This document shows positions 38,578 through 51,862 of a DNA stretch of 64,000 nt, piece after piece. A model generated the notes under the pieces. The model saw only the letters and a program-made list of their open reading frames with translations. It did not search any database and was not told the DNA's origin. Within the stretch, counting starts at the first letter, position 1. The number at the start of each line of letters is the position of its first letter. Made by a program: the position numbers and the translations under genes. The DNA is from Croceivirga lutea (GTDB lineage Bacteria > Bacteroidota > Bacteroidia > Flavobacteriales > Flavobacteriaceae), in NCBI RefSeq assembly GCF_014235875.1, contig NZ_JACJUK010000001.1:372001-436000 (forward strand). The letters run 5' to 3'.

Positions 38578-39030
38578 CTGTTGCGTCAAGCTGATTAGAA
38601 TTCTCTGAAAAATTTATAAAAACTTCATTACTAAAATTCCAGCTACTATTATACATAACCCGTGAAAAGTAAGTTTAGCTAGTGGCTGATTTTATTTGGT
38701 GTCGAGATGAAGCGGTGGCAAACTAAATTCTTGTTTTCAGATTATTCATGCCATTAATACCGTAATTTCCTTGACATAATTCTGGACGTTATAACACAGG
38801 CAAGCTTTACTATAACTGAATTATGTGCAAATAGCGTTAGACACGCTATTACTGAAATCACTACAAATGTACTATAATGTTCTGCGTTATGTAACTTGAG
38901 CTTTGATTAAAAGCGAAAGTTGTTACCATCTTCATTGATTTTTTTCTTTCTAAAAATTCTCTTTTCAAAAGGTAATGGAGTACTTATTAACTGACCGACG
39001 GTAGGAGGGAGGGCAATGTGTGCGGAATGG
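38578..39030. repeat. Island repeat A (left end; body and tail form)
   Basis: Non-coding. It begins with TTGCGTCAAGCTGA, as in repeat B at 43172, and runs with high similarity to 43313-43676: the AGCyAG(T/C)GGCT element, the segment around TACCGTAATTTCCTTGACAT, then the hairpin at 38830-38850 and AAAAGGTAATGGAGTAC. It ends with the tail GGCAATGTGTGCGGAATGG at 39012-39030. It lacks the GGCCTAAG head found in B, C and D. The SIR2-STAND promoter starts 24 nt after the tail. The rest of 38561-39099 shows no gene. Confidence 0.85.
38830..38850. repeat. Conserved hairpin in repeat A
   Basis: AATAGCG pairs with CGCTATT across a 7-nt loop. The equivalent hairpin in repeat B (43471-43492) has a stem one pair longer and a different loop, so pairing is conserved while sequence changes. 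Confidence 0.7.
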
Positions 39031-39053
39031 GTTTTAATAAGATAATTCTTAAC

Positions 39054-39061
39054 TATATTTG
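39054..39061 (+). promoter_or_regulatory. -7 box for the SIR2-STAND gene
   Basis: TATATTTG matches TAnnTTTG and is 38 nt upstream of the ATG at 39100. It sits 24 nt after the end of repeat A, so the gene appears to carry its own promoter. Confidence 0.5.
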
Positions 39062-39099
39062 GTTGTTATACTATTATCACTAAAATTCTTACAAATAGA

Positions 39100-42000
39100 A
39101 TGAGTAGCCAAAAATTTCCACAACACCTCTTGGAAGCTATTGCGGGCAATAAATTAATTGTTTTTGCCGGTAGTGGAACATCACATAATTTAAAATTCCC
39201 TTCTTGGAATGAACTTGTAATTCAGATTATCGACTCAATAGTTACAAGTACTGGAGATAAAAAGTTAAATGCATTTAAAGGGGTTCTGGAAACAGGTGCA
39301 ATGGAAGCAATTGACGTTTTGACTCAAATTGAAAAACAAGGATATAGAAAGAATTCTTTTGATTATTTAGAAAAAAATCTAAGAATTGCTTCCAATGAAG
39401 ATTTGTCATTACAAAATGAGCTTTTTGAACTATGCCCTAAAATAATAACAACCAATTATGATCACGCTTTTGAACATGCACTAGGAGATAAGGTTCACAA
39501 AATAGGATATGAGAGCATCCATGGAATGACCAATTTATCAAAAAAGAGCAATTACATATTTAAAATTCATGGTGATATTGATAATCCTGATAAGTGTATT
39601 TTGTTTCAATCGGACTATAATAAACTTTATAAAGAAAATCAGGAAAATTTATTTTTAACTAGATTGAGAAGTTTGATTCTTGATAGAACAATACTTTTTA
39701 TTGGCTTCAGTCTATCCGACCCCTACGTTAAGGAAGTTTTTAGTAAAATGAATGAATTAACTGGTGGTATGATGGATAAGCATTATTTGATTACCACTCA
39801 AGAGGATTTTAGTCTTCCTTTTATAGAGCCCATTGTATTAGAAAGTTACGCCCATGTTTTGGAGACTATTAAGGCCTTAAAAGTTATTACTGATAGCAAA
39901 GTTGAATCAGGAGATATTTCTAAAACACAAGTGGAGTTGAATGATGTAGATTCTACAAATAAGGCATCAGAAACCAAAACAACTCTCCTATTTGCAGATC
40001 CAATAGATAAAAATTTTGATTTTAAGCCAGAGATAAGTTTTAAATCTATCGGTAATTATCAGGCTCTGTTTCAACAATCCATTTTAAACATGGACAAACT
40101 GCGCAATGTCGAAAATGGATACCTTTTTCTATTTACCCAAACTATCAAAGGGAGTTTAGTTATCGAGGATGAGTATTTGTGCTCCAGACAGATATCTCAT
40201 GAGGATTTAATGGATAATATATCGGAAAATATATCTGGGGTCTTCGTTTTTACAAATAAGTTGCCAAATTTTAAAGAAAGTTCGACGGGTAGAATACCCT
40301 GTTCTTATCTAATCGAAGAGAATTCCTCAAAACAAAAAAAACGTATAGATTCTTTGCTTTATAAGATAAGCCGAGGGAGAGAGGATTTTTATAAAGACTC
40401 AAATCAAATTTTCAATGATGCACAATTTGAAGTACTATCCCTTGTCAAAGGTAAAGTAACCAATGTAAGCGCGGAGCATAGTCTTTCTCGATATATAGAC
40501 AAAAAATTACTATCACATTTTATTGGCAGAAAAACTGATGTAGAAAATATTATAAGAAAAGTTATTGATTTAGAATTTGAGGATAAAATACTCACAATTA
40601 AAGGCTCTGGTGGAATAGGTAAAACCACAATAATAATAAAAGCAGCTATAGAGTTAGCGAAAAGGGAGTTATTCAACTCAATTGAATACATATCCTGTCA
40701 GTCGATATCATCTTTGGAAAACCTAAAGTATCAAATTTCAAATTGTCTAGGTTTAGATTCCAGTTCTGATTTAATCTCCCAATTGCACGCATTAGGGAAA
40801 GAGAAAAATACGATTATAATACTTGACAATTTTGAAACTTTACTTAGCCTGCCGGAGAGCTTAGAGATGCTTGAAATTGTATCAGTTGTATGTGATTATT
40901 GCCTGGTGGTAACCACAAGTAGACAATTGTTAGACTTGGAATTTGAAGAACTCTATGAACTTAGAAGACTTACTACCGAAGAAGGTTTAGAACTTTTCAC
41001 GACATATTATAAAGGTAAATTAGATGAAGAAGAACAAAGAATTCTAAGGTATGACATTGTAGAAGAATTATTGAATAATAACCCACTTGCAATTAAGATA
41101 GTATCAAAAGGAGTTCCTCATTCTAAAAGTATGCGAATATTATGTGATGAGTTGAAAGAGAATATATTTAGCAATGAGAACTTAGATAGAATTTTTGAAA
41201 AACCAGAAGATATTAACATTGAAAAATCAAAGTCCTTATACTATTCTATAAAGTACTCGTACGACAAGTTAAACCCCCAAGAAAAATTATCTTTTGAATT
41301 ACTTTCATTATTTCCTGATGGAATTCATGTAGAGAACCTTAAAAAGTTTGCCAAACAAAATAAGACTTCTCCAATAAAAATTACGGACAAGGAAATAAAA
41401 TCATTAAATGACAAATCCTTACTAGAAAATAGCAGTGGTTTTCTTAAACTTCAATCAATAGTAAATAGATTTTCCAATCATCAATTTAATCTAAAAGACA
41501 AAGTGGTTAAACGAAGTTTTTACACTTTATGTTTTGAGTATAACTACTTCTTCATAGATTTTCTACAAAATTATTTGAAAATTTCAGATTCTTTACAAGC
41601 GCAAGATGATAATATAAATAACTATCTAAGATGTATTGATTATATGGAGTTTATCAATAAGAAAGATGAGGAAAAGCTAGATTATATCGATTGTCTTGCG
41701 AATTTTTTTAGAAATATAAATCAACATACAGAGTTCACAATTAAACTTAATAAAATTGAGCACCTTTTTAGTGAAAATGAAAATGGAGTAAAGCTGATAA
41801 AACTAATAAAGCTTCATCTTCTTTTTTGGTGCAAAAGATTTAGCGGTGTTTCAAACGAGGTAAAAGGTTTAATTACAAAACAAGAAATTCAACTTTTAGA
41901 CCTAGAAGATAAAGTTGAAAAAATGATTTATGGGAAGGCAATGTCTATAAACACCTGTGAAGGAGATTCTTTATTTTTGGTCGAGGATTATATAAAAAGG

Positions 42001-42648
42001 AAATATTTACAGCCTAATATAATTAATGAAATATATCGCGTTGGTTTCAAAAAAATCGCGTTAGAATTAATTGAATATGAATCCGACCCAGATTTTGGAA
42101 ATTATGAAATAATGCTTGCAAACGATTGTCTTTCTGAAGATGATTTAGTTAATTATCTAAAGAGGTTATATAAAAAGGAAACATTGGAATTAATTCAAAC
42201 TACTTATACCAGATTAAAACTAAATCCGAAAATCGAAATTGATACATCGTCGTTCGTAGTTACAAATCCTTATACTCAAGGTATGGTATATTTAATTAAA
42301 GCTATAAAAGAAACGGATATTGATTTAAAAAATAAGCACTTTTTAAATGCTTTAAACCATTTACAACATATTAGATATTACTATGTAGAAGCCATATTTC
42401 AGTATTGTAGTTTTTTGAAAATGGCGGGTAAAACAAAGGATTTCACTAAATATTTAGAAATAGGTTTAAAACAATCAACCAAATTTAGTTTTTATTATCT
42501 CAAACATAAATTCCTAAAGTTTGAAGACAGCTCTTTAAAGTATGATGAAAATGAAATATTCCAGAAATTACCTCAGTTAAAAAAAGACGAGATTGAAAAC
42601 TATGTAAAGGAATTTAAACAAAAACAAAAAGGAAAGAAAAGGAAGTGA
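39100..42648 (+). CDS. SIR2-STAND NTPase, Avs-type anti-phage defence protein
   Basis: 1182 residues. N-terminal SIR2-like NADase domain (about 1-280): VFAGSGTS near 21-27, TTNYDH with Asn119, KIHGD with His157, LFIGFSLSDPYV near 203. A region of about 190 residues (285-475) of unknown fold follows. The STAND NTPase has its P-loop at 502-510 (GSGGIGKTT), Walker B IIILDNFE near 572, TTSR sensor, and NNPLAIKIV. The remaining 500 residues are helical-repeat-like, the usual target-sensing part. Related SIR2-STAND proteins deplete NAD on sensing phage proteins. It is alone between repeats A and B and is visibly A+T richer than dgdA, fitting transfer. Confidence 0.85.
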   Translation: MSSQKFPQHLLEAIAGNKLIVFAGSGTSHNLKFPSWNELVIQIIDSIVTSTGDKKLNAFKGVLETGAMEAIDVLTQIEKQGYRKNSFDYLEKNLRIASNEDLSLQNELFELCPKIITTNYDHAFEHALGDKVHKIGYESIHGMTNLSKKSNYIFKIHGDIDNPDKCILFQSDYNKLYKENQENLFLTRLRSLILDRTILFIGFSLSDPYVKEVFSKMNELTGGMMDKHYLITTQEDFSLPFIEPIVLESYAHVLETIKALKVITDSKVESGDISKTQVELNDVDSTNKASETKTTLLFADPIDKNFDFKPEISFKSIGNYQALFQQSILNMDKLRNVENGYLFLFTQTIKGSLVIEDEYLCSRQISHEDLMDNISENISGVFVFTNKLPNFKESSTGRIPCSYLIEENSSKQKKRIDSLLYKISRGREDFYKDSNQIFNDAQFEVLSLVKGKVTNVSAEHSLSRYIDKKLLSHFIGRKTDVENIIRKVIDLEFEDKILTIKGSGGIGKTTIIIKAAIELAKRELFNSIEYISCQSISSLENLKYQISNCLGLDSSSDLISQLHALGKEKNTIIILDNFETLLSLPESLEMLEIVSVVCDYCLVVTTSRQLLDLEFEELYELRRLTTEEGLELFTTYYKGKLDEEEQRILRYDIVEELLNNNPLAIKIVSKGVPHSKSMRILCDELKENIFSNENLDRIFEKPEDINIEKSKSLYYSIKYSYDKLNPQEKLSFELLSLFPDGIHVENLKKFAKQNKTSPIKITDKEIKSLNDKSLLENSSGFLKLQSIVNRFSNHQFNLKDKVVKRSFYTLCFEYNYFFIDFLQNYLKISDSLQAQDDNINNYLRCIDYMEFINKKDEEKLDYIDCLANFFRNINQHTEFTIKLNKIEHLFSENENGVKLIKLIKLHLLFWCKRFSGVSNEVKGLITKQEIQLLDLEDKVEKMIYGKAMSINTCEGDSLFLVEDYIKRKYLQPNIINEIYRVGFKKIALELIEYESDPDFGNYEIMLANDCLSEDDLVNYLKRLYKKETLELIQTTYTRLKLNPKIEIDTSSFVVTNPYTQGMVYLIKAIKETDIDLKNKHFLNALNHLQHIRYYYVEAIFQYCSFLKMAGKTKDFTKYLEIGLKQSTKFSFYYLKHKFLKFEDSSLKYDENEIFQKLPQLKKDEIENYVKEFKQKQKGKKRK

Positions 42649-42669
42649 CAATTTGAATCCGCGAAAGAC

Positions 42670-43195
42670 GGCCTAAGAGAATTTTGGTAAAACAATAGGG
42701 GAGAGGAGCGGCCATATTTTTATTGCCTCCGACGAACGAGGCACGAGAGAGAGGAAGGCACTTTTTGTAATAAGTAAATTTCTTAATATTCTAGGTCTTA
42801 AGAGTTACAATGGATCCTAAAATATAGCGACTAAACCGTGATTGTTTCCAAAATTATCTACGTGACAAAAGAAATTAGCCAGTGGCTGATTGCTTTTGGT
42901 GGCGGGTTGGAGCGTTGGCATTTTTTTGTTTCGCAGCCGCATCATCTCGCTCAAAGTATACTTTGCCGTATCAAGAAAAAAAGATAAAAGAAACGCTTAT
43001 TGGTTACCATGTTGAAATCCTATTTTACATAATGTTAGAAACACCTAAAGAAAAACTTCAAACATGACTAGAGGTTAGCAAGGGCTAAGAATTTTGCTCG
43101 CTTTGCCAGCGCTTCATCTCGCTCATATTTTGAAAGGTCTACTAGACCTTCCAAAATACTGCCGTTAGCTGTTGCGGCAAGCTGACAAGAATGTT
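42670..43195. repeat. Island repeat B, first part (head)
   Basis: Non-coding, starting 22 nt after the SIR2-STAND stop with GGCCTAAGAGAATTTTGG. It is almost identical to 50775-51090 in repeat D over about 310 bases, then continues at lower similarity to about 51303. It contains the AGCCAGTGGCT element, the perfect palindrome CAAAGTATACTTTG near 42952-42965, and the hairpin AAGGTCT/AGACCTT at 43134-43150. No gene; a 61-codon frame inside is not credible. Bases 43196-43312 between the two halves hold no recognised element. Confidence 0.9.
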
Positions 43196-43312
43196 GTAGA
43201 AAAAAATCTTGCATACATTTCCTCGAATACGAGAATTTTGGTAGCACGGGAAATTATAGAAATATTTTAAAATATTAGAATCATAAATTCCTTTTGACAT
43301 ACGCAAGAACAA

Positions 43313-43676
43313 TGATTAGCCAGCGGCTGATTTTATTTGGTGGCGAGATGAAGCGGTGGCAAACTAAATTCTTGTTTTCAGATAATTCATGCTATTAATA
43401 CCGTAATTTCCTTGACATAATTCTGGACGTTATACTACAGGCAAGCTTTACTATAACTGAATTTTGTGCAAATAGCGCGGAAATGCGCTATTCAGGAATT
43501 AATTACAAAATGTACTATAATGTTCCGCGTTATGTAACTTGAGCTTTGGTTAAAAGCGAAAGTTGTTACCATTTTTATTGATTTTTTTCTTCCTTAAAAT
43601 TTTCTTCTTAAAAGGTAATGGAGTACTCTTTGCCCGAAGCGACGACAGGAGCGAAGTGGTAATGTGTATGGAATGG
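43313..43676. repeat. Island repeat B, second part (body and tail)
   Basis: Very similar to 38672-39030 of repeat A throughout. It contains the hairpin AATAGCGC/GCGCTATT (43471-43478 and 43485-43492) and AAAAGGTAATGGAGTAC, and ends in the tail GGAGCGAAGTGGTAATGTGT followed by ATGGAATGG. The DUF6660-like gene follows 53 nt later. Confidence 0.9.
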
Positions 43677-43715
43677 TCAATATGCCTTTGCACAGCCATT
43701 GCATCTAGAATTTAA

Positions 43716-43723
43716 TATCTTTG
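43716..43723 (+). promoter_or_regulatory. Candidate -7 box for the metal module
   Basis: TATCTTTG matches TAnnTTTG and ends 5 nt before the ATG at 43729. A -33 TTG at a normal spacing is not present, so confidence is modest. If real, the message would be nearly leaderless. Confidence 0.35.
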
Positions 43724-43728
43724 TACCA

Positions 43729-44046
43729 ATGAAATTTTTAAGCATCATCCTAGCTTTTACAATGCTCACTTTGACCGCGAAGCCATGTTCTGATGGTCAA
43801 AATTTTGATGACCAACAACAGCAAGAGCTGAGCATAGACCATAATCATCAAGAAGATAATGATGATTCTTGTCCTATAACTTGTATTTGTAATTGTTGTG
43901 GTATGTCGATAGCCTATGAACCTTTACCCACATTTGAACTCAATTTTTACACCAGCATTTCTACACAATCAATAGCTATCTATCAGTCAATTTATAGATT
44001 TGATTTTCATTCCAACATTTGGCAACCGCCCCAAGTAATTAGCTAA
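43729..44046 (+). CDS. Small Cys/His-rich exported protein, DUF6660-like
   Basis: 105 residues from the ATG at 43729; ten codons upstream are in frame but lack a hydrophobic start. A signal peptide (FLSIILAFTMLTLTA) is followed by KPCSDG, an acidic His segment (DHNHQEDNDD), then a cluster CPITCICNCCG. Such proteins precede TonB receptors in flavobacterial metal-resistance clusters and resemble the DUF6660 family. The Cys and His content suggests metal binding in the periplasm. It is followed 49 nt later by the TonB receptor and is probably co-transcribed. Confidence 0.65.
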   Translation: MKFLSIILAFTMLTLTAKPCSDGQNFDDQQQQELSIDHNHQEDNDDSCPITCICNCCGMSIAYEPLPTFELNFYTSISTQSIAIYQSIYRFDFHSNIWQPPQVIS

Positions 44047-44095
44047 GACTTCTAGATTTTTAAATCACTTTTTTAGTTAATTACAATCATATTCA

Positions 44096-46282
44096 ATGAA
44101 CAAACACATTTTGAGCGTAAAGCTCATGTTTTTGCTATGCCTATCGCTACAGGCACAAAAATCAGATATTCAAATAACCGTCTATTCAGAGGATGAAAAC
44201 GAACCCTTAATAGGTGCTACAGTTTACTTTGAAACATTAGAAAAAGGAGCTATTACCAATTTTGATGGTATAGCAGAATTTACCGAAATACCTAACGGTC
44301 AACATTCAACAGTAATTTCATTTTTAGGCTTTCAAACATTAGAAACAACAATTCAAGTACCTAGTGATGCGGATTATATTTTTAAACTTAAAGTAGATGC
44401 TAACGTATTAGATGAAGTGGTACTTCAATCTACACGTAGTACAAGGACTGTAAAAAAGATACCAACACGTATTGAGTTTATTGGCGTCGAGGAACTAGGG
44501 GAGAAAGCAATAATGAATCCTACTAATATTTCTATGGTGCTTCGAGAAAGCACAGGAATACAAATGCAACAAACATCATTAAGTAGTGGGAGTACCAATA
44601 TTCGTATTCAAGGTTTAGATGGTAGGTATACACAGCTTTTAAGAGATGGATTTCCATTATATGGTGGTTTCTCAAGTGGGTTAAGTATTTTACAAATCCC
44701 ACCTTTAGACTTACAACAATTTGAAATTATTAAAGGAAGTTCGTCAACACTTTATGGTGGCGGTGCTATTGCAGGATTAGTAAATATGGTATCTAAAACA
44801 CCATATGAAGAACCTGCATTAGATATTATGCTAACTCAAACCCAAGCGTTAGGAAGTACAGCCAATGTATTTTATAGCAAACGAAATGAAAAATTCGGTA
44901 TATCACTTTATGGTTCTGGTCATTATCAAAAAGCATACGACCCAGAAGATGATGGCTTTAGTAACCTACCAAAAACAACATCAATTTCATTCAATCCAAA
45001 ATTATTTTATTATCCATCAGATAAAACAACACTTTGGTTTGGATTAAACGGAACGTACGATGATAGAATTGGTGGAGATATGACCAAAATTGAAAGTGGT
45101 GAGGATGGTATTCATCAATATACAGAAGAAAACAATTCAAAACGATTAAGCAGTCAATTGGTATATCAAACACAATTAGATGCTGTCAGTTCATTAGAGT
45201 TTAAAAATAGTGTCTCTTTTTTCGATAGGAATTTAACCGTTCCAGATTTTAATTTTGATGGCAAACAAACAAATACGTTTACTGAAATCACATATAATAC
45301 AGCATCAGAAAAAACGGATTGGATAGTTGGAGCTAATCTTTATACCTCAAATTTTGATGAAAATGATAACGCACCATTACAGAGAGACCAAAAAGATGTA
45401 ACCTTTGGCGCATTTGCAAATAATATTTATGACTTATCAGATAATTGGATATTAGAAACAGGATTAAGAGCAGATTATAATACGGATTTCGGTTTCTTCC
45501 CACTTCCAAGAATTTCATTACTTTATAAAAACAATAGTGGATTTTCAAGTAGAATTGGTGGAGGTTTAGGATATAAGATTCCAGATATTTTTACAGAAGA
45601 AGCAGAATATATCAATTTTGAAAATGTGCTTGCTATAGATAAATCTACAGTAGATGCAGAACGTTCTTATGGTGTTAATTTCGATGTAAACTATCAAACA
45701 CGATTATCGGATGAAATTGGTTTTTCCATAAACCAATTATTCTATGTGACTGCAATAAATGATGGATTGCTTTTAAATTCAACAGATAACGGTTTATTTC
45801 AGTTTGAAAATGCACCAGATGAAATATTCAGTAAAGGAGCAGAAACCAATATAAAATTTACATACAAAGACTTTAGATGGTTTTTAAACTATGCACTAAT
45901 TGATACCAAATTAAATTATTTACCTGGCAATCCACAGAAGCCATTAACCGCAAAACATAACGCAGGTAGTGTTTTAATGTACGAATCTGAAAAATGGCGT
46001 ATTGGTTATGAAACCTTTTATACAGGCAAACAGTTTTTATCTAACGGAACAGAGACTACAGACTTTGTAACTATGGGTTTATTGGTGATGCGTAACTTTA
46101 AATTAGGAAGTGTATTTGTGAATTTTGAGAATTTTACAGATAGAAGACAAAGCAGGTTTTCACCTTTGGTTTTACCACCTCACGAAAATCCTGTTTTCCC
46201 AGAAATATATGCGCCAACAGATGGTTTTATATTTAGTGTAGGTCTTATTATTAAACCATTTGGAAACGAAGACCACGATTAA
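44096..46282 (+). CDS. TonB-dependent outer-membrane receptor (metal module)
   Basis: 728 residues. Signal peptide ending LQAQ, then a carboxypeptidase-like beta domain (about 25-105: PLIGATVYFETLEKGAITNFDGIAEF), a plug domain (about 120-235: VLDEVVLQSTRSTRTVKKIPTRIEFI, GLDGRYTQLLRDGFPLYGG, GSSSTLYGGGAIAGLVNMVSK), and a 22-strand barrel ending with aromatic residues. The TonB receptor normally imports a nutrient; placed between a Cys-rich protein, a Fur regulator and a P-type ATPase, it more likely handles a metal ion. The Fur gene starts 2 nt after its stop. Confidence 0.9.
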   Translation: MNKHILSVKLMFLLCLSLQAQKSDIQITVYSEDENEPLIGATVYFETLEKGAITNFDGIAEFTEIPNGQHSTVISFLGFQTLETTIQVPSDADYIFKLKVDANVLDEVVLQSTRSTRTVKKIPTRIEFIGVEELGEKAIMNPTNISMVLRESTGIQMQQTSLSSGSTNIRIQGLDGRYTQLLRDGFPLYGGFSSGLSILQIPPLDLQQFEIIKGSSSTLYGGGAIAGLVNMVSKTPYEEPALDIMLTQTQALGSTANVFYSKRNEKFGISLYGSGHYQKAYDPEDDGFSNLPKTTSISFNPKLFYYPSDKTTLWFGLNGTYDDRIGGDMTKIESGEDGIHQYTEENNSKRLSSQLVYQTQLDAVSSLEFKNSVSFFDRNLTVPDFNFDGKQTNTFTEITYNTASEKTDWIVGANLYTSNFDENDNAPLQRDQKDVTFGAFANNIYDLSDNWILETGLRADYNTDFGFFPLPRISLLYKNNSGFSSRIGGGLGYKIPDIFTEEAEYINFENVLAIDKSTVDAERSYGVNFDVNYQTRLSDEIGFSINQLFYVTAINDGLLLNSTDNGLFQFENAPDEIFSKGAETNIKFTYKDFRWFLNYALIDTKLNYLPGNPQKPLTAKHNAGSVLMYESEKWRIGYETFYTGKQFLSNGTETTDFVTMGLLVMRNFKLGSVFVNFENFTDRRQSRFSPLVLPPHENPVFPEIYAPTDGFIFSVGLIIKPFGNEDHD

Positions 46283-46284
46283 AT

Positions 46285-46698
46285 ATGGAAACAATAGAAC
46301 AAGTATTAGAGTCAAAAAATATTCGTGTTACAGCAATGCGTATGTTAATTTATAAGTTTCTTGCAGAAAAAGAGATAGCGGTAACATTGAGTGATATTGA
46401 AAATGCTTTTGAAAAAGCAGATAGAACTACCTTGTACAGAACTATTAAAACTTTTGAAGAAAAGGATATTGTGCATCAAATAGACGATGGCACAGGGATA
46501 ACAAAATATGCGTTATGCGAAAAGGGATGTAATTGTGATATAAAAACCGATTTACACTTACATTTCCATTGTAACAATTGCAATGAAACCATTTGCCTAA
46601 CAGAACATAAAATACCGCAAATTAAAGTACCTGATGGTTTTGTGTCAGAGAATGTAAATTTGGTGGTAAAAGGTATTTGCGATAAGTGTAGTGGCTAA
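46285..46698 (+). CDS. Fur-family metalloregulator
   Basis: 137 residues. Winged helix (about 10-80: RVTAMRMLIYKFLAEKE, TTLYRTIKTFEEKDIVHQI) and the Cys/His metal domain: LHLHFHCNNCNETICLTEH near 90-110, and C-terminal CDKC. The pattern of the two CxxC pairs marks a structural zinc site. Members include Fur, Zur and PerR; here location beside a TonB receptor and a Zn/Cd-type P-ATPase suggests a zinc- or cadmium-responsive regulator. It starts 2 nt after the receptor gene, so it is in the same operon. Confidence 0.88.
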   Translation: METIEQVLESKNIRVTAMRMLIYKFLAEKEIAVTLSDIENAFEKADRTTLYRTIKTFEEKDIVHQIDDGTGITKYALCEKGCNCDIKTDLHLHFHCNNCNETICLTEHKIPQIKVPDGFVSENVNLVVKGICDKCSG

Positions 46699-46754
46699 TA
46701 ATTGCACTTCCATTGCACTTACTATTAAAGTACATTTATCCAAAATTAGTGGAT

Positions 46755-47117
46755 ATGAAGTTTAATACTAAAATACCTAAACATCTTAAACAGGCGTATA
46801 ACGAAGAATTAAAACTATACAGTTTCTGTTAAGAAAATAAGCATTTTGGCAATGCTTGGTATCATTTAGAACGCAGTCATATCATAGGGCAATCTTATCC
46901 AATAGAACATACCTATTCACATTGGTTAATGCTAAAATTTGGATTTAGACAAAAAGATACTAAAGAAGTAATAGGTCAAATAGTTAGGTTGTTTGTGGGT
47001 GGCTGGAAATCATTTATAAATCACGTTCCACTTGGTAATACAGGTGGAGCAAACGTGCCACCATTAAAACGGATGCCTATTCCCAATGACATTGAAAAAT
47101 TATTAGATATTAAATGA
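46755..47117 (+). pseudogene. DUF3703 family gene, interrupted by an in-frame stop
   Basis: Starting at ATG 46755 (MKFNTKIPKHLKQAYNEELKL) the frame is stopped at codon 26 (TAA, 46830-46832), then continues unbroken in the same frame: HFGNAWYHLERSHIIGQSYP, EHTYSHWLMLKFGF, FVGGWKSFINHVPLGNTGGA, PPLKRMPIP. This is the whole DUF3703 family sequence, about 120 codons. DUF3703 genes are commonly found with metal-resistance genes; their function is not known. One nonsense base change, or a sequencing error, explains the interruption. The final ATGA overlaps the P-ATPase start, so translation coupling may be affected. An internal ATG at 46929 could give a 62-residue fragment. Confidence 0.85.
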
Positions 47118-49066
47118 AAAAAAAGAAAGTCAATTTAAGAGATTTAAAACCAAATTCAGAAGAACAACATTCTCACGATGATGGTCACGACCACGGAAAT
47201 GGAAGTGCATTCAAAACATACATTCCTGCTATTATAAGTTTTGTTATGTTAATGGTAGGTATCGCTGTAGATTATTTTGATGCGATTCCTCAATTTCAAG
47301 GATGGATTCGAGTAGTTTGGTACACTTTAGCATATATTCCAGTTGGGTTTCCTGTAATTAAAGAAGGATGGAAAAGCCTTATAAAAGGCGATGTTTTTAC
47401 CGAGTTCTTTTTGATGTCTATTGCCACAATTGGTGCGTTTATTATTGGTGAATATCCTGAAGGTGTTGCAGTAATGCTATTTTATGCAGTAGGAGAATTA
47501 TTTCAAAACGCAGCAGTTAATAGAGCAAAAGGAAACATTAAAGCCTTATTGGATGTTAGACCAAAAGAAGCTAATGTATTTCGTGATGGTGATTATATAA
47601 GTGCGTCGCCAGAAGCTGTAAATATTGGCGAGAAAATACAAATTCGAGTAGGTGAAAAAATTCCATTGGATGGTATTTTATTATCCGAAAAAGCATCGTT
47701 AAATACAGCAGCTTTAACAGGAGAAAGCAAACCAGATTCTATTCAGAAAGATGCAAAGGTTTACGCAGGTAGTATCAATTTGGAAAGTGTTATTGAAGTT
47801 GAGGTAACCAACACCTTTGAAGATAGTTCTATTGCGAGAATATTAGACTTGGTTCAAAATGCTACAGCACGTAAATCTAAAACAGAATTATTTATTAGGC
47901 AGTTTGCTCGTATCTACACACCAATTGTTGTGTTTTTAGCTATTGGCGTAACTTTTATACCTTACTTTTTTGTAGATGATTATGTATTTCGAGATTGGTT
48001 ATACAGAGCATTAATTTTCCTGGTAATATCTTGTCCTTGTGCGTTAGTGATTTCAATTCCATTAGGATATTTCGGTGGATTGGGAGCAGCTTCCAAAAAT
48101 GGAATATTATTTAAAGGTGCTTCATTTTTAGATGCAATGACCAAGATAAATACTTTGGTAATGGACAAAACTGGAACCGTTACCAAAGGTGTATTTAAAA
48201 TTAAAGAAGTAAAAGCAATCGGTTGGAATGAAACCGAATTTATGCGATACTTAATGGCGATGGAAGAGCAATCCACGCATCCAATTGCAAAAGCCATTTT
48301 AGAGTATAAAGCAGAAGGTGAAGATTATGAAGCTTCCGAAGTGTCTGAAATTGCAGGTAAAGGTTTAAAAGGCGTTGTTAATGATAAAACAGTTTTAGTA
48401 GGAAATAAAGCCTTAATGACTGCGAATAATATAAATGTTCCATCTGAAACGGAATCTATTGTAGAATCGATAGTATTAGTTGCAATCGATAATCAATTTG
48501 CAGGTTATGTAGTCATAGCAGATGAATTAAAGGAAGATGCAAAAGAAACTATTACAGCATTACACAAAGTAGGCATTAAAAATATTATGATGCTTTCTGG
48601 TGATAAAGATTCCATTACTCAACAAGTCGCTAAAGAACTAAATATTGAAAATGCTAAAGGTGGTTTATTACCAGAAGATAAGTTAAACGAAGTTGAAATT
48701 TTAAAGAAAAATCCTGAAAACAAAATAGCTTTTATAGGTGATGGTATAAACGACGCACCTGTTTTAGCAGCAAGTAACGTTGGTATTGCAATGGGTGGTT
48801 TAGGTAGTGATGTAGCTATTGAAACAGCAGATGTCATTATTCAAACAGACCAACCATCAAAAGTAGTGAGGGCTATTAGGATTAGTCGTTCTACACGTAA
48901 AATTGTTTGGCAGAATATCATTTTAGCATTTGGTGTTAAAGTTATTGTCTTGATTTTAGGAGCAGGTGGTTTAGCCACAATGTGGGAAGCTGTTTTTGCA
49001 GATGTAGGAGTAGCATTATTAGCAATTTTAAATGCAGTTCGATTACAACGAATGAGTTGGAGTTAG
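47114..49066 (+). CDS. Heavy-metal P1B-type ATPase (Zn/Cd/Co efflux)
   Basis: 650 residues. The N terminus has no HMA domain; instead a His/Asp-rich stretch (HSHDDGHDHGNG) at about 19-30. Eight membrane segments, with the metal motif SCPCALVISIPLGYFGG near 310, phosphorylation site DKTGTVTKG near 355, STHPIAKAI, and MLSGDKD and GDGINDAPVLAASNVGIAMGG near 550. The CPC motif with a zinc-type N-terminal His run fits Zn/Cd/Co export. Overlaps the DUF3703 frame by 4 nt. Last gene of unit 2; the next repeat head begins 28 nt later. Confidence 0.92.
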   Translation: MKKKKVNLRDLKPNSEEQHSHDDGHDHGNGSAFKTYIPAIISFVMLMVGIAVDYFDAIPQFQGWIRVVWYTLAYIPVGFPVIKEGWKSLIKGDVFTEFFLMSIATIGAFIIGEYPEGVAVMLFYAVGELFQNAAVNRAKGNIKALLDVRPKEANVFRDGDYISASPEAVNIGEKIQIRVGEKIPLDGILLSEKASLNTAALTGESKPDSIQKDAKVYAGSINLESVIEVEVTNTFEDSSIARILDLVQNATARKSKTELFIRQFARIYTPIVVFLAIGVTFIPYFFVDDYVFRDWLYRALIFLVISCPCALVISIPLGYFGGLGAASKNGILFKGASFLDAMTKINTLVMDKTGTVTKGVFKIKEVKAIGWNETEFMRYLMAMEEQSTHPIAKAILEYKAEGEDYEASEVSEIAGKGLKGVVNDKTVLVGNKALMTANNINVPSETESIVESIVLVAIDNQFAGYVVIADELKEDAKETITALHKVGIKNIMMLSGDKDSITQQVAKELNIENAKGGLLPEDKLNEVEILKKNPENKIAFIGDGINDAPVLAASNVGIAMGGLGSDVAIETADVIIQTDQPSKVVRAIRISRSTRKIVWQNIILAFGVKVIVLILGAGGLATMWEAVFADVGVALLAILNAVRLQRMSWS

Positions 49067-49094
49067 CACTTATATCGGTTACTATTTTGTCCTT

Positions 49095-49158
49095 GGCCTA
49101 AGAGAATTTTGGCAAAACAATAGGCGAGGGGAGCGAAGTGGCAATCTGTATAAAATGG
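49095..49158. repeat. Island repeat C (minimal head-tail junction)
   Basis: A 64-nt element with the head GGCCTAAGAGAATTTTGGCA joined directly to the tail GGAGCGAAGTGGCAATCTGT and then ATAAAATGG. It shows the shared head and tail without the 1-kb filling of repeat B. It lies between the stop of the P-ATPase and the promoter of the ArsR gene. Confidence 0.85.
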
Positions 49159-49192
49159 AATACTAGTCCAAAATATCTACAATATTTTAGTA

Positions 49193-49224
49193 TTTGCTTA
49201 AATAAGAAAATAATTATATTTTTG
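49193..49224 (+). promoter_or_regulatory. Promoter of the arsR-merTP unit
   Basis: TTTG at 49193-49196 and TATTTTTG at 49217-49224 are separated by 20 nt, the normal Bacteroidota -33/-7 layout. The ATG of arsR is only 4 nt after the -7 box, so the transcript would be leaderless or nearly so. An imperfect AT-rich dyad around ATTTGCTTAAATAAG may be an ArsR operator. Confidence 0.6.
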
Positions 49225-49228
49225 ATTT

Positions 49229-49609
49229 ATGAAGAATGACATTTGCATAAGGCTAGAAGCCGATGCCAAACAAATAATGAATTGTAGAGAAGTTGTTCAA
49301 AAATTAGATACTTCTTTTCAAGACCTTTCAAGTATTTTAAGTTTAACTGGAAATTCGGTTAGATTGAAACTATTGTATTTGCTGAATAAAGAAGGTCGTT
49401 TATGTGTTTGTGATTTAAGTGACGTTTTAGAAATGAATGTTTCGGCTATATCACAGCATTTGAGAAAGCTTAAGGATAGAAACCTTATTTATTCTAAAAA
49501 GGAAGCGCAAACAATCTTTTATTCAGTTTCGGAAGACAAACTAACATTGTTAACTCCATTTTTTGAAATATTGGATAAGAGTAAAGTTTTAGAAGATAGT
49601 GAATTATGA
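49229..49609 (+). CDS. ArsR/SmtB-family metal-sensing repressor
   Basis: 126 residues. Winged helix (about 36-110: GNSVRLKLLYLLNKEGRLCVCDLSDVLEMNVSAISQHLRKLKDRNLI). CVCDL is the metal-binding motif of the alpha-3 type, found in ArsR and mercury or cadmium sensors. N-terminal Cys6 and Cys19 (KNDICIRL, MNCREVV) may contribute. It starts the mercury-type unit and overlaps merTP by 4 nt, so it likely represses the unit and is released by Hg, As or Cd. Confidence 0.88.
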   Translation: MKNDICIRLEADAKQIMNCREVVQKLDTSFQDLSSILSLTGNSVRLKLLYLLNKEGRLCVCDLSDVLEMNVSAISQHLRKLKDRNLIYSKKEAQTIFYSVSEDKLTLLTPFFEILDKSKVLEDSEL

Positions 49610-50193
49610 GTTCAGAAAAGAAGTTAATCGGAACAACCATTATTACTGCAATTGCAGCTTCATTATGTTGCATTACACCTGTATTGGCATTAATTGCGGG
49701 AACCAGCGGAATTGCATCAACATTTTCGTGGATTGAACCATTTAGACCGTATTTAATAGCGATTACAATTTTGCTCTTAGCAATAGTTTGGTATCAAAAA
49801 TTAAAGCCTAAAAAAGAAGAGATTGATTGTGAATGTGAAGATGATAATCCAAAATTTATTAGCTCTAAAAAGTTTCTGTTTTTAATTACTCTTTTTACAG
49901 GGTTAATGTTAGCATTTCCTAATTATTCAGAAATATTCTTTCCAAGCGATAAAAAGGAAGTTGTTTACGTAAGCGAATCAGATGTCAACGTGGTCGAATA
50001 TAAGATAAGCGGAATGACTTGTGCTGGGTGTGAAGTACATATAGAAAGTGAAGTAAATAAGCTCGATGGAATAATTGAAGTTAAAGCTAACTACGAAAAT
50101 GGTAATACAATAGTAAAATTTGATAGAGGAAAAGTTACCAATAATCAAATTGAAGTTGCCGTTGGCAAAACTGGATATAAAATTATAGAATAA
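49606..50193 (+). CDS. MerT-MerP fused mercuric transport protein
   Basis: 195 residues. The MerT part (about 1-115) has three membrane segments, with CCITP at about 21-25, and a loop with CECEDD. The MerP-like HMA domain at the C terminus has GMTCAGCEVH (about 140) and the usual ferredoxin-like pattern. Fused MerTP proteins occur in Bacteroidota mercury clusters. The unit lacks a mercuric reductase, so imported metal would have to be reduced or exported elsewhere; the protein may instead assist export. Starts with a 4-nt overlap with arsR; its stop overlaps the next start by one base. Confidence 0.85.
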   Translation: MSSEKKLIGTTIITAIAASLCCITPVLALIAGTSGIASTFSWIEPFRPYLIAITILLLAIVWYQKLKPKKEEIDCECEDDNPKFISSKKFLFLITLFTGLMLAFPNYSEIFFPSDKKEVVYVSESDVNVVEYKISGMTCAGCEVHIESEVNKLDGIIEVKANYENGNTIVKFDRGKVTNNQIEVAVGKTGYKIIE

Positions 50194-50402
50194 TGGAAGT
50201 GCTCCTGAAATCCACAATTACCTGCCCAAAATGCGGTCATGAAAAAGAGGAAGAGATGCCTATAACGGCTTGTCAATTCTTTTATGATTGTGAAAATTGC
50301 AAAGAAGTATTAAGACCTAAAGAAGGTGATTGTTGTGTATTTTGCTCCTATGGAACCGTAGCTTGTCCTCCAATTCAAGAAAACAAAAGTTGTTGTAATT
50401 AA
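50193..50402 (+). CDS. GDCCVxC-domain metal-binding protein
   Basis: 69 residues with ten Cys. CPKCGHE near 11, CENCKEV near 34, then GDCCVFCSYGTVACPPIQ, the GDCCVxC signature, and a C-terminal CC. The family includes selenoprotein forms; here the usual Cys codons are present and no UGA is seen within the frame. Found with merTP in Bacteroidota, so a mercury or arsenic thiol-binding role is likely. The TAATG overlaps at both ends couple it to its neighbours. Confidence 0.82.
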   Translation: MEVLLKSTITCPKCGHEKEEEMPITACQFFYDCENCKEVLRPKEGDCCVFCSYGTVACPPIQENKSCCN

Positions 50403-50770
50403 TGGGCTATAAGGCTAAAAATATAAGAACGTTTATTGGTGCAAAGAGATATGATGAATCTAGAACGTTCTATCGAGAGCTTGGTTTTGAAGAAATCATT
50501 TTAAATGATAAAATGTCCTTATTTAAAGTCAATGAAAGTTTGGCGTTTTATTTGCAAAAGTATTACGTCAAAAAATGGTTGCACAATTCAATGATATTTT
50601 TGGAAGTTGACGATATAGAATCTTGTGAGCAAGAATTACTTGCAAAAGGTCTTCACAACAAATATAAATATGTTCGTTTTACTGAAATAAAAACTTTTGA
50701 TTGGGGAAGGGAACTGTTTATGCATGACCCTTCTGGTGTTTTATGGCATTTTTGTCAATTTAATGAATAA
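50402..50770 (+). CDS. VOC-superfamily protein (glyoxalase/bleomycin-resistance fold)
   Basis: 122 residues, two beta-alpha-beta-beta-beta units: KNIRTFIGAKRYDESRTFYRELGFEEI at the start and MIFLEVDDIESCEQELLAKG. DWGRELFMHDPSGVLWHFCQF holds the common DP.G..W motif near the C terminus. No catalytic assignment can be made. It is last in the arsR-merTP-GDCCVxC unit and could bind the metal-organic ligand, or resist an organic mercury or arsenic compound. Repeat D starts 4 nt after its stop. Confidence 0.75.
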   Translation: MGYKAKNIRTFIGAKRYDESRTFYRELGFEEIILNDKMSLFKVNESLAFYLQKYYVKKWLHNSMIFLEVDDIESCEQELLAKGLHNKYKYVRFTEIKTFDWGRELFMHDPSGVLWHFCQFNE

Positions 50771-50774
50771 CCTT

Positions 50775-51303
50775 GGCCTAAGAGAATTTTGGCAAAACAA
50801 TAGGTGAGGGGAGCGGCCATATTTTTATTGCCTCCGACGAACGAGGCACGAGAGAGAGGAAGGCACTTTTTGTAATAAGTAAATTTCTTAATATTCTAGG
50901 TCTTAAGAGTTACAATGGATCCTAAAATATAGCGACTGAGCCGTACATTGTTTCCAAAATTATCTACGTGACAAAAGAAATTAGCCAGTGGCTGATTGCT
51001 TTTGGTGGCGGGTTGGAGCGTTGGCATTTTTTTGTTTCGCAGCCGCATCATCTCGCTCAAAGTATACTTTGCCGTATCAAGAAAAAAAAGATAAAACTAA
51101 ACGCTTACAGGTTACAATGCTGAAATTCTATTTGACATAATGTTATGGACGCCAACAAAAAAATGCTGATTCGGAGGAGGATGTGAGCAAGTGCCAAGAA
51201 ATTATCTCGTTTTGCCAGCGCTCCAACGCGCTCATATTTTAAAAGGTCTACCAGACCTTTAAAAATACTGCCGTTAGCTGTTGCGGAAAGCTGACATGAC
51301 GCC
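50775..51303. repeat. Island repeat D (right end, head form)
   Basis: Non-coding. Starts GGCCTAAGAGAATTTTGGCA 4 nt after the VOC stop. Near-identical to 42670-42985 of repeat B, then similar to 43195 with differences. Contains the palindrome CAAAGTATACTTTG (51058-51071) and the hairpin AAAGGTCT/AGACCTTT around 51242-51259, where the paired bases flanking the B-copy stem have changed compatibly. No tail is present. A small frame at 51105-51350 on the minus strand is not credible. Confidence 0.9.
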
Positions 51304-51862
51304 CCTGAAATTTTTCTTCTCCAAATATTCAAGTAAATCAAAGGCTTCAATAAATACGTAAAGTTGAGCTTTTAATGGCGTTGGCAAGCGATGGCAAATT
51401 GTGTTTAAAATAAATTGCCTGAGCAATTTGATTTTAAAAAGCAATCGAGCGCTTGGTAGCGGCTATTTTACATAACGGCTAATTATGGTACAAATGAAAA
51501 TATGCGTCGCAGACACCGCTTAAAAAAGTTTAATGACCCTGTTCTAAATTTTAATTGATTCTCAGAGAGTTAAGGGATATTTTACATAATATAGAATTAT
51601 GAATTACAACCAAGATGTTGACCCTTAAATACTTACGCTTAACTTTGTATCATAATTTATATTATGTCAAATATTAATATTTCTTTATAGTCAAACCCCT
51701 TTACCTTTCACTACTTTTTATTCAATTACTTCTTCTTCTTTATCCACTTTATGTTTAGTTTAACATTAAACTACTTTATAAGGTAACGCATTCTCATTCT
51801 AAATTAATTAAGCCAAGTACACCAAAAAGAAATGTATATTTAGTCAACCAATACCAAACCAC
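51304..51862. other. Intergenic DNA right of the island
   Basis: 559 bases with no credible gene. A hairpin TTGGCAA...; GGCAAATT pairs with AATTTGCC-like sequence near 51393-51419, and ACATAACGG near 51471 resembles the ACATAATG tags at 43027 and 51137. From 51540 the sequence is unrelated to the repeats. The last 80 bases before DUF5916 probably contain its promoter, but no good -33/-7 pair is visible. Confidence 0.5.

Follow-up and report, generated by a model that had tools for sequence, protein, structure and literature searches.

A probable array of gene cassettes at the chromosomal dif site of Croceivirga lutea and other Flavobacteriaceae

The stretch analyzed here, 64,000 nt of the Croceivirga lutea genome (contig NZ_JACJUK010000001.1, positions 372,001 to 436,000; hereafter the window, with positions counted from its first nucleotide), contains an accessory island that begins at position 38,578 and is most probably an array of non-autonomous gene cassettes at the flavobacterial chromosomal dif site. 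A first-pass annotation of the same DNA had described cassette-like units between shared non-coding junctions, and this description holds, since the cargo changes while the junctions stay. It had named no recombinase and had missed dif. The view that nothing marks the ends of the units is not supported, as the array finishes at dif and every left end (LE) opens with a dif-like site. As the genome also encodes a XerD that passes the NCBIfam cut-off, together with another Xer homologue, the host XerC/XerD pair can be named as the likely machinery. Many marine flavobacteria stack interchangeable packets (defence, metal handling, toxin-antitoxin and more) beside dif, where the two completed chromosomes are separated, and the host Xer enzymes apparently insert them in place of an integrase carried by the units.

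A canonical dif lies at the right edge of the last right end (RE) in the window, where RE terminates at the dif-shaped sequence TTGTAYYATAA-TTTATA-TTATGT. Searching with up to one mismatch gave exactly one copy in each of the named genomes (17/17), while with up to two mismatches dif was found in 87 of 99 genomes, some of them with more than one copy. GC skew was positive to the left and negative to the right of dif in 34 of 44 loci, and the cumulative skew of the window reaches its maximum at 52–54 kb, just past dif. Because of its dif form, the single copy per named genome and the turn in GC skew, this site is very probably the chromosomal dif. The unoccupied locus is a plain dif without LE or RE, as in 14 of the fetched dif loci, many of which were picked since their genomes had no repeat match. 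When a genome with dif and no array (G003; G, C and L denote genomes, contigs and loci) was compared with one carrying both (G006), a 1065-aa gene on the left was common to the two and divergence set in before dif, so the insertion point is unreadable to the base.

The aligned repeat copies resolve into two non-coding ends, the LE of about 165 nt (the "tail" of the first-pass annotation) and the RE of about 800 nt, which starts with its "head". Each unit is laid out as [dif′+LE]-cargo-[RE], and RE runs either into the following dif′ or into dif. Here dif′ is the dif-like site opening LE, with a XerC arm as in dif, a XerD-like arm and a 9-nt centre, the centre of dif being 6 nt. LE thus starts with GTACTATAA-TGTTCTGCG-TTATGTAAC. 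Among 129 dif′ sites the centre was 9 nt long in 122 and 10 nt in four, with three unparsed; the main centre variants were TGTTCTGCG (77), TGTTCCGCG (18) and TGTACCGCG (14), and the commonest XerC arm was GTACTATAA, the same as in dif. The pattern YATAAN9TTATG occurred 122 times in 24.4 kb of LE versus 18 times in the remaining 1.52 Mb. Only three sites fell in the relevant class when the XerC arm was related to the kind of sequence upstream of it, too few for an association.

The LE contains a conserved stem at its tail, the only one with a strongly covarying pair (one pair: CG 61, TA 40, TG 5; n = 111) among seven well-kept ones, in an analysis where several of the top covariation scores join positions that do not pair. 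Folding of the LE consensus was weak (−3.94 kcal/mol, with double changes in 2 of 16 pairs), and two of the nine positions of the LE tail stem are mostly T-T mismatches. The RE is interrupted near profile position 236 by an ORF (open reading frame) or insert in G028, G029, L169, L172, L177, L179 and L265–L267, as if it consisted of two modules with a second cargo slot. In the window, both RE copies contain a near-perfect hairpin (43,126–43,158 and 51,235–51,267), in which TTTTGAAAGGTCTACTAGACCTTCCAAAA matches its own reverse complement. Rfam scanning of the island region gave no family at the gathering score; there was one weak match to Chlorobi-RRM per RE copy (42,872–42,931 and 50,978–51,037; 23.7 bits, gathering 45).

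The repeats are restricted in their distribution. Repeat B (42,670–43,676) matched four places in the 3.45-Mb genome, itself included, all within the island and far beyond chance, so the genome-wide scatter unrelated to gene boundaries that was to count against the cassette view is not what is seen. Among the 99 genomes, B matches were found in 28 (own included), all belonging to the 60 of its own family, and in none of the 39 from other families of the order. The exact LE-core pattern was present in at least 117 stretches of genome contigs; the 80 stretches listed bear names of Flavobacteriaceae genera or just Flavobacteriaceae, Flavobacteriales or Bacteroidia. Of the 28 genomes with a B match, 27 have at least one on the contig of dif and no more than 20 kb away from it. 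Two of these (G024 and G047) have it on or beside dif itself, leaving 25 of 26 without them; the exception by B search, G044, has an LE 4 kb from its dif according to the LE profile. Among the 17 named genomes holding the LE pattern, LE is left of dif in 16, accompanied by RE in 15, and Confluentibacter lentus (L274) shows LE alone in the fetched stretch.

With variations, the order is LE-cargo-(RE-dif′-LE-cargo)n-RE-dif, and in 109 sequences, each turned by majority and some overlapping, 166 LE, 109 RE and 38 dif copies fell on one strand with none discordant. The profiles behind these counts were built from 36 LE and 23 RE copies, which reappear in them.

The cargo, on the other hand, changes from genome to genome. 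At 29 loci, a homologue at another locus was found for 126 of 218 ORFs right of dif, versus only 31 of the 211 island ORFs and 45 of the 170 to the left of dif. Genome pairs with a tblastx match of at least 80 aa numbered 121 right-right, 24 left-left and 20 cargo-cargo (42, 42 and 29 stretches, respectively), which identifies the right flank as the stable side. Two Nonlabens ulvanivorans genomes have in common the left flank (88–90%), LE, the end of RE with dif and the right flank (84%; one of the two has an additional ORF there), and blastn of the LE-to-RE interval found no common DNA. Within the genus of the window, G005, G006 and G009 have the same genes right of dif and different cargo. 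The same cargo in the same order, the other outcome held to tell against cassettes, was not found, relatives carrying different cargo.

Families were assigned for 76 + 103 relatives' cargo proteins (179 of about 211 cargo ORFs), taking the top 25. The most frequent Pfam families reach just four members of the 76 and three of the 103. The cargo includes defence-type profiles (Septu-like, AbiL, viperin-like, methylases), ParDE, efflux, secreted and metabolic families. One of the 103 proteins matched Phage_integrase and one a transposase PHROG, while no integrase was found among the top 25 families (at least two members) of the other 76. The first ORF after LE points in the same direction in 97 of 131 cases and in the opposite one in 34.

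Units shared between genera mostly begin at dif′. A 6109-bp unit is common at 96% to Nonlabens (L261) and Lacinutrix (L268). In each it starts at the edge of the XerC arm, 13 nt to the left of the dif′ centre, and its left neighbours differ, which suggests that units move between cells or strains. Lacinutrix L268 also has 6.3 kb in common with Aquaticitalea (L276) at 85%, and a parDE unit recurs in G029, G059, L078 (G016), G046, L161 and L267 with borders mostly at dif′ and the next dif or dif′. In this type of comparison 22 of 80 loci were omitted as overlapping other stretches, and high-scoring segment pairs (HSPs) below 450 bp were ignored; for the border comparisons the limit was 300 or 600 bp. 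Of the 22 dif′/dif′ homologies that reach 600 bp, 17 start between 4 and 18 nt to the left of the centre. A right end found at dif in one genome may be found at dif′ in another. In such dif versus dif′ comparisons, 27 of 35 homologies break off exactly at the arm/centre border, while seven go on for 3 nt and one for 16 nt; in dif/dif comparisons the homology extends at least 17 nt past the border in 113 of 113. This switch follows in part from telling dif and dif′ apart by their centres. The informative part of the comparison is that one right end joins either centre.

In the window itself, the four repeats A, B, C and D of the first-pass annotation are present at the positions it gave. B is 90% identical to D over B 1–521, 87% to A over B 647–1007 and 93% to C over B 1–41, and is a composite, RE first and then an LE opening with the dif-like site at 43,512. 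The end proposed for D, at 51,303, has to be moved, as the RE profile runs on to dif. The tail consensus fits B and C, whereas the tail of A is GGAGGGAGGGCAATGTGTGCGGAATGG. The 24–60 nt proposed between tail and unit start hold only roughly, the listed ORFs beginning 69, 22 and 70 nt past tails A, B and C (that after B with TTG), while the spacing of 4–29 nt ahead of the head agrees with last ORFs that stop 21, 28 and 4 nt before it. The cargo assignment, a defence gene and then two metal modules, was likewise borne out (Table 1). No integron integrase is found among the window cargo.

In repeat C, a GGAGCG common to both ends links RE, of which the first 40 nt are present, with the last 34 nt of LE, and dif′ is missing. 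It is probably a deletion product that merged cargo 2 and 3 into one unit. The first-pass reading of C as a bare head-tail junction is right for the window, whereas its extension to a general 64-nt empty form was rejected because no other was found among the fetched relatives: by pattern search, none of 18 bare tails had a head within 160 nt upstream. The relic upstream of unit 1 is probably the remnant of an earlier unit's right end.

Table 1. Features of the island and of the dif site in the window.
Feature	Position	Strand	Remarks
RE-like relic upstream of unit 1	38675..38868	+	Repeat family D2; first 162 nt 95% identical to 43316-43477 within B
dif′ of unit 1	38869..38895	+	XerC arm GTACTATAA, 9-nt centre TGTTCTGCG, XerD arm TTATGTAAC
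LE of unit 1 (A tail), non-coding	38869..39030	+	LE profile match 38857-39031, E 5e-41; copy itself in the set that built the profile
Cargo 1: 1182-aa SIR2-like + NB-ARC protein, defence-like	39100..42648	+	PADLOC ThsA/STALD profiles on SIR2 part
RE of unit 1 (B head)	42670..43511	+	Far part unlike RE at D
dif′ of unit 2	43512..43538	+	GTACTATAA / TGTTCCGCG / TTATGTAAC
LE of unit 2 (B tail), non-coding	43512..43676	+	
Cargo 2: DUF6660 protein, TonB-dependent receptor, Fur-family regulator, P-type metal ATPase	43699..49066	+	
C: bare head-tail junction without dif′	49095..49158	+	
Cargo 3: ArsR-family regulator, MerT + HMA protein, small cysteine-rich protein, glyoxalase-family protein	49229..50770	+	
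RE of last unit (D, extended)	50775..51644	+	
Chromosomal dif (very probable)	51645..51672	+	TTGTATCATAA / TTTATA / TTATGTCAAAT

Order and orientation, the dif′ with its 9-nt centre, sharing across genera limited by the junctions and cargo change between fixed junctions can be read from the sequences directly, and a mechanism is proposed on this basis. Most likely, the dif′ of a circular unit would meet dif, and XerC, with XerD, would swap one strand at the XerC arm/centre border. The left junction would then gain the 9-nt centre and XerD arm of the unit, and the right junction would pair the XerC arm of the unit with the old dif centre and XerD arm. Since canonical dif would be rebuilt on the right, each new unit would come to lie beside dif in the same orientation, and arrays would grow there. 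The Xer reaction, the circular intermediate and the order of events are all putative. LE and RE may act as accessory DNA, for which cer is a precedent. In the parts of PMC4246890 that concern them, VGJphi is described as having one dif-like site and a reversible integration, in which XerC alone exchanges strands since the two centres are unlike on the XerD side, and CTXphi as using folded single-stranded DNA (ssDNA) irreversibly. Under a VGJphi-like scheme the left junction should have the centre and XerD arm of the element, the right junction should retain a canonical dif, and the units should share one orientation, which is the arrangement seen here. Cargo may also be swapped by homologous recombination within the conserved tails and heads.

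Several observations weigh against Xer-mediated stacking at dif. The left flank is no better kept than the cargo in the pair counts above (24 versus 20). No exact empty site was found for the window in 10 other genomes of the genus, where the best matches of the left-flank aminotransferase reach at most 35% identity. Wocania ichthyoenteri (L272) has a dif with neither LE nor RE beside it; some copies lie on other contigs or far from dif (G002, G005, G016, G021, G036, G046 and G059), and the arrays L074 (G036:C3) and L078 (G016:C6) have no canonical dif. A 9-nt centre falls outside the 6–8 bp given for usual dif sites in the review PMC5357621, where difSL has 11 and difH 6–10. Simple stacking would not lead one to expect the 95% repeat that stands to the left of A and of B. 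Finally, the homology between G028 and L177 (92%, 3.9 kb) begins in a bare tail, not at dif′, and for units starting in this way homologous exchange fits better. As a separate observation, the L074 array ends at a dif-like site with an altered centre (TATCATAATTTAATTTATGTTAA).

One alternative is that homologous recombination alone exchanges cargo around dif, with dif′ a relic and Xer playing no current part. The conservation of tails and heads would suffice for it, the G028/L177 unit starts within a tail, the Nonlabens pair retains LE and RE while its cargo differs, and the 18 bare tails lack the dif′ part. Nevertheless, units shared across genera mostly start at the XerC arm of dif′ and not within LE, tandem RE-dif′-LE junctions and one-way arrays at dif are not predicted, and the retention of the 9-nt centre in nearly all dif′ sites suggests use. 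Exchange by homology alone is therefore unlikely. Satellites of a dif-integrating phage (e.g., of Flavobacterium ssDNA phages), packaged through signals in LE and RE, are improbable as well. The covarying pair in the conserved LE stem would suit such signals, and PMC9719478 and PMC3091885 describe PhiCjT23-like prophages and Bacteroidetes microviruses flanked by dif sites. However, the exact LE-core pattern had no match in the 2.9 million viral contigs of IMG/VR, blastn of LE found none in 50,697 phage records, and no phage or replication gene recurs among the top 25 cargo families. Besides, units of at least 6 kb are larger than the cargo expected of a small ssDNA phage.

An integron, or an attC array of the CALIN type (cluster of attC sites lacking an integrase), served by an integrase elsewhere in the genome shares the cassette architecture, and an IntI-like recombinase is indeed encoded (G000:C15:348768-349553). 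This alternative is very improbable, since that gene is on contig C15 and the island on C11, the repeats of the island go together with dif, whose arms are matched by the LE cores, and blastn of the attC-like repeats of four relatives against B gave chance-level matches (best E 0.1), on which the attC array was rejected. That LE and RE are ordinary regulatory RNAs or promoters of mobile operons with an incidental proximity to dif can hardly be credited, for although tails are often directly upstream of cargo on the same strand, first ORFs are reversed in 34 of 131 cases, a copy lies near dif in 27 of 28 genomes, LE and RE show no strand conflict with dif, and no Rfam family reaches its gathering score in the island region.

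Integron-like chromosomal arrays were observed independently of the island in relatives (L090–L095 and L102, from G050, G105, G024, G034 and G035), the own homologue, the IntI-like gene on C15 (L087), being about 0.6 kb from a contig end. Their tyrosine recombinases, of about 375–400 aa, match the integron-integrase profile in one or two pieces, with top scores of 120–139 bits where the cut-off is 265, and skip model positions of about 180–240, a stretch that may be the extra helix of known integron integrases. They adjoin runs of small ORFs spaced by attC-like repeats of about 130–165 nt, often 90–97% alike.

Beyond the array itself, a broader interpretation can be put forward only tentatively, and it is somewhat doubtful: that Flavobacteriaceae possess a gene-capture platform apart from integrons, in which the chromosome-separation machinery would be the integrase, dif the docking site, and a dedicated format (a dif′ with 9-nt centre, a folded LE and a long RE) would let genes of other genera, unrelated to one another, be stacked with no need of phage, plasmid or integrase functions. 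If so, the dif of marine flavobacteria would tell where recently gained defence and accessory genes are to be expected, any dif locus could be read like an integron array, and Xer recombination alone could sustain a recurring cassette economy. The exact dif and dif′ sites offer a way to learn what use is made of a 9-nt centre and why dif stays functional after integration.

In the open-access literature no account of dif cassette arrays in Bacteroidota was found, the nearest being integrative mobile elements exploiting Xer (IMEX), dif-flanked Bacteroidetes phages and Acinetobacter module islands. Sedentary chromosomal integrons resemble the island in having a fixed platform, one-way arrays of unrelated cargo and, as growth is inferred here, growth at one end. 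Unlike them, the island has no attC, attI or neighbouring integrase, and its platform is dif with XerC/XerD as the likely enzymes. The Bacteroidetes microviruses and PhiCjT23-like prophages at dif belong to the same phylum (once to Flavobacterium) and have dif-like flanks, and no integrase is reported for the microviruses (PMC3091885, PMC9719478). Whereas those are whole phages, the units here carry other genes and conserved non-coding ends.

Sites in pdif modules have a 6-nt centre and alternate in orientation, a pattern that differs from the 9-nt centres and the absence of LE/RE/dif strand conflict in the island. The dif/pdif modules of Acinetobacter, as far as described in the relevant parts of PMC12907356 and PMC6449649, are gene modules between Xer sites that form multi-module arrays, in chromosomes too, and in this they are like the units here; they reside on plasmids and at additional chromosomal dif-like sites. 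In contrast, the flavobacterial units abut the main dif in one orientation, with a 9-nt centre and long conserved non-coding ends, and blastn of LE against 72,556 plasmids found no occurrence. IMEX elements (VGJphi/CTXphi type, gonococcal genetic island), in the corresponding parts of PMC4246890, PMC5357621 and PMC9765430, carry a dif-like site, integrate at chromosomal dif, retain a canonical dif on one side with a modified one opposite, and can stand in tandem at dif, features that the units here appear to share. Of the traits by which IMEX are recognized, a site in the element that mimics dif and a place at the chromosomal dif are both present in the island, and the Nonlabens/Lacinutrix unit suggests movement between cells or strains. 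Unlike IMEX, the units lack recurring phage, replication or conjugation genes among the top 25 cargo families, and the searches made found them in no viral, phage or plasmid collection; they combine a conserved 9-nt centre, an LE of about 165 nt and an RE of about 800 nt conserved across genera with many unrelated cargos. IMEX elements and the Acinetobacter dif modules are the closest kinds, and the island type is a variant set apart by its 9-nt centre, by non-coding ends that are both long and conserved, and by arrays running in one direction only.

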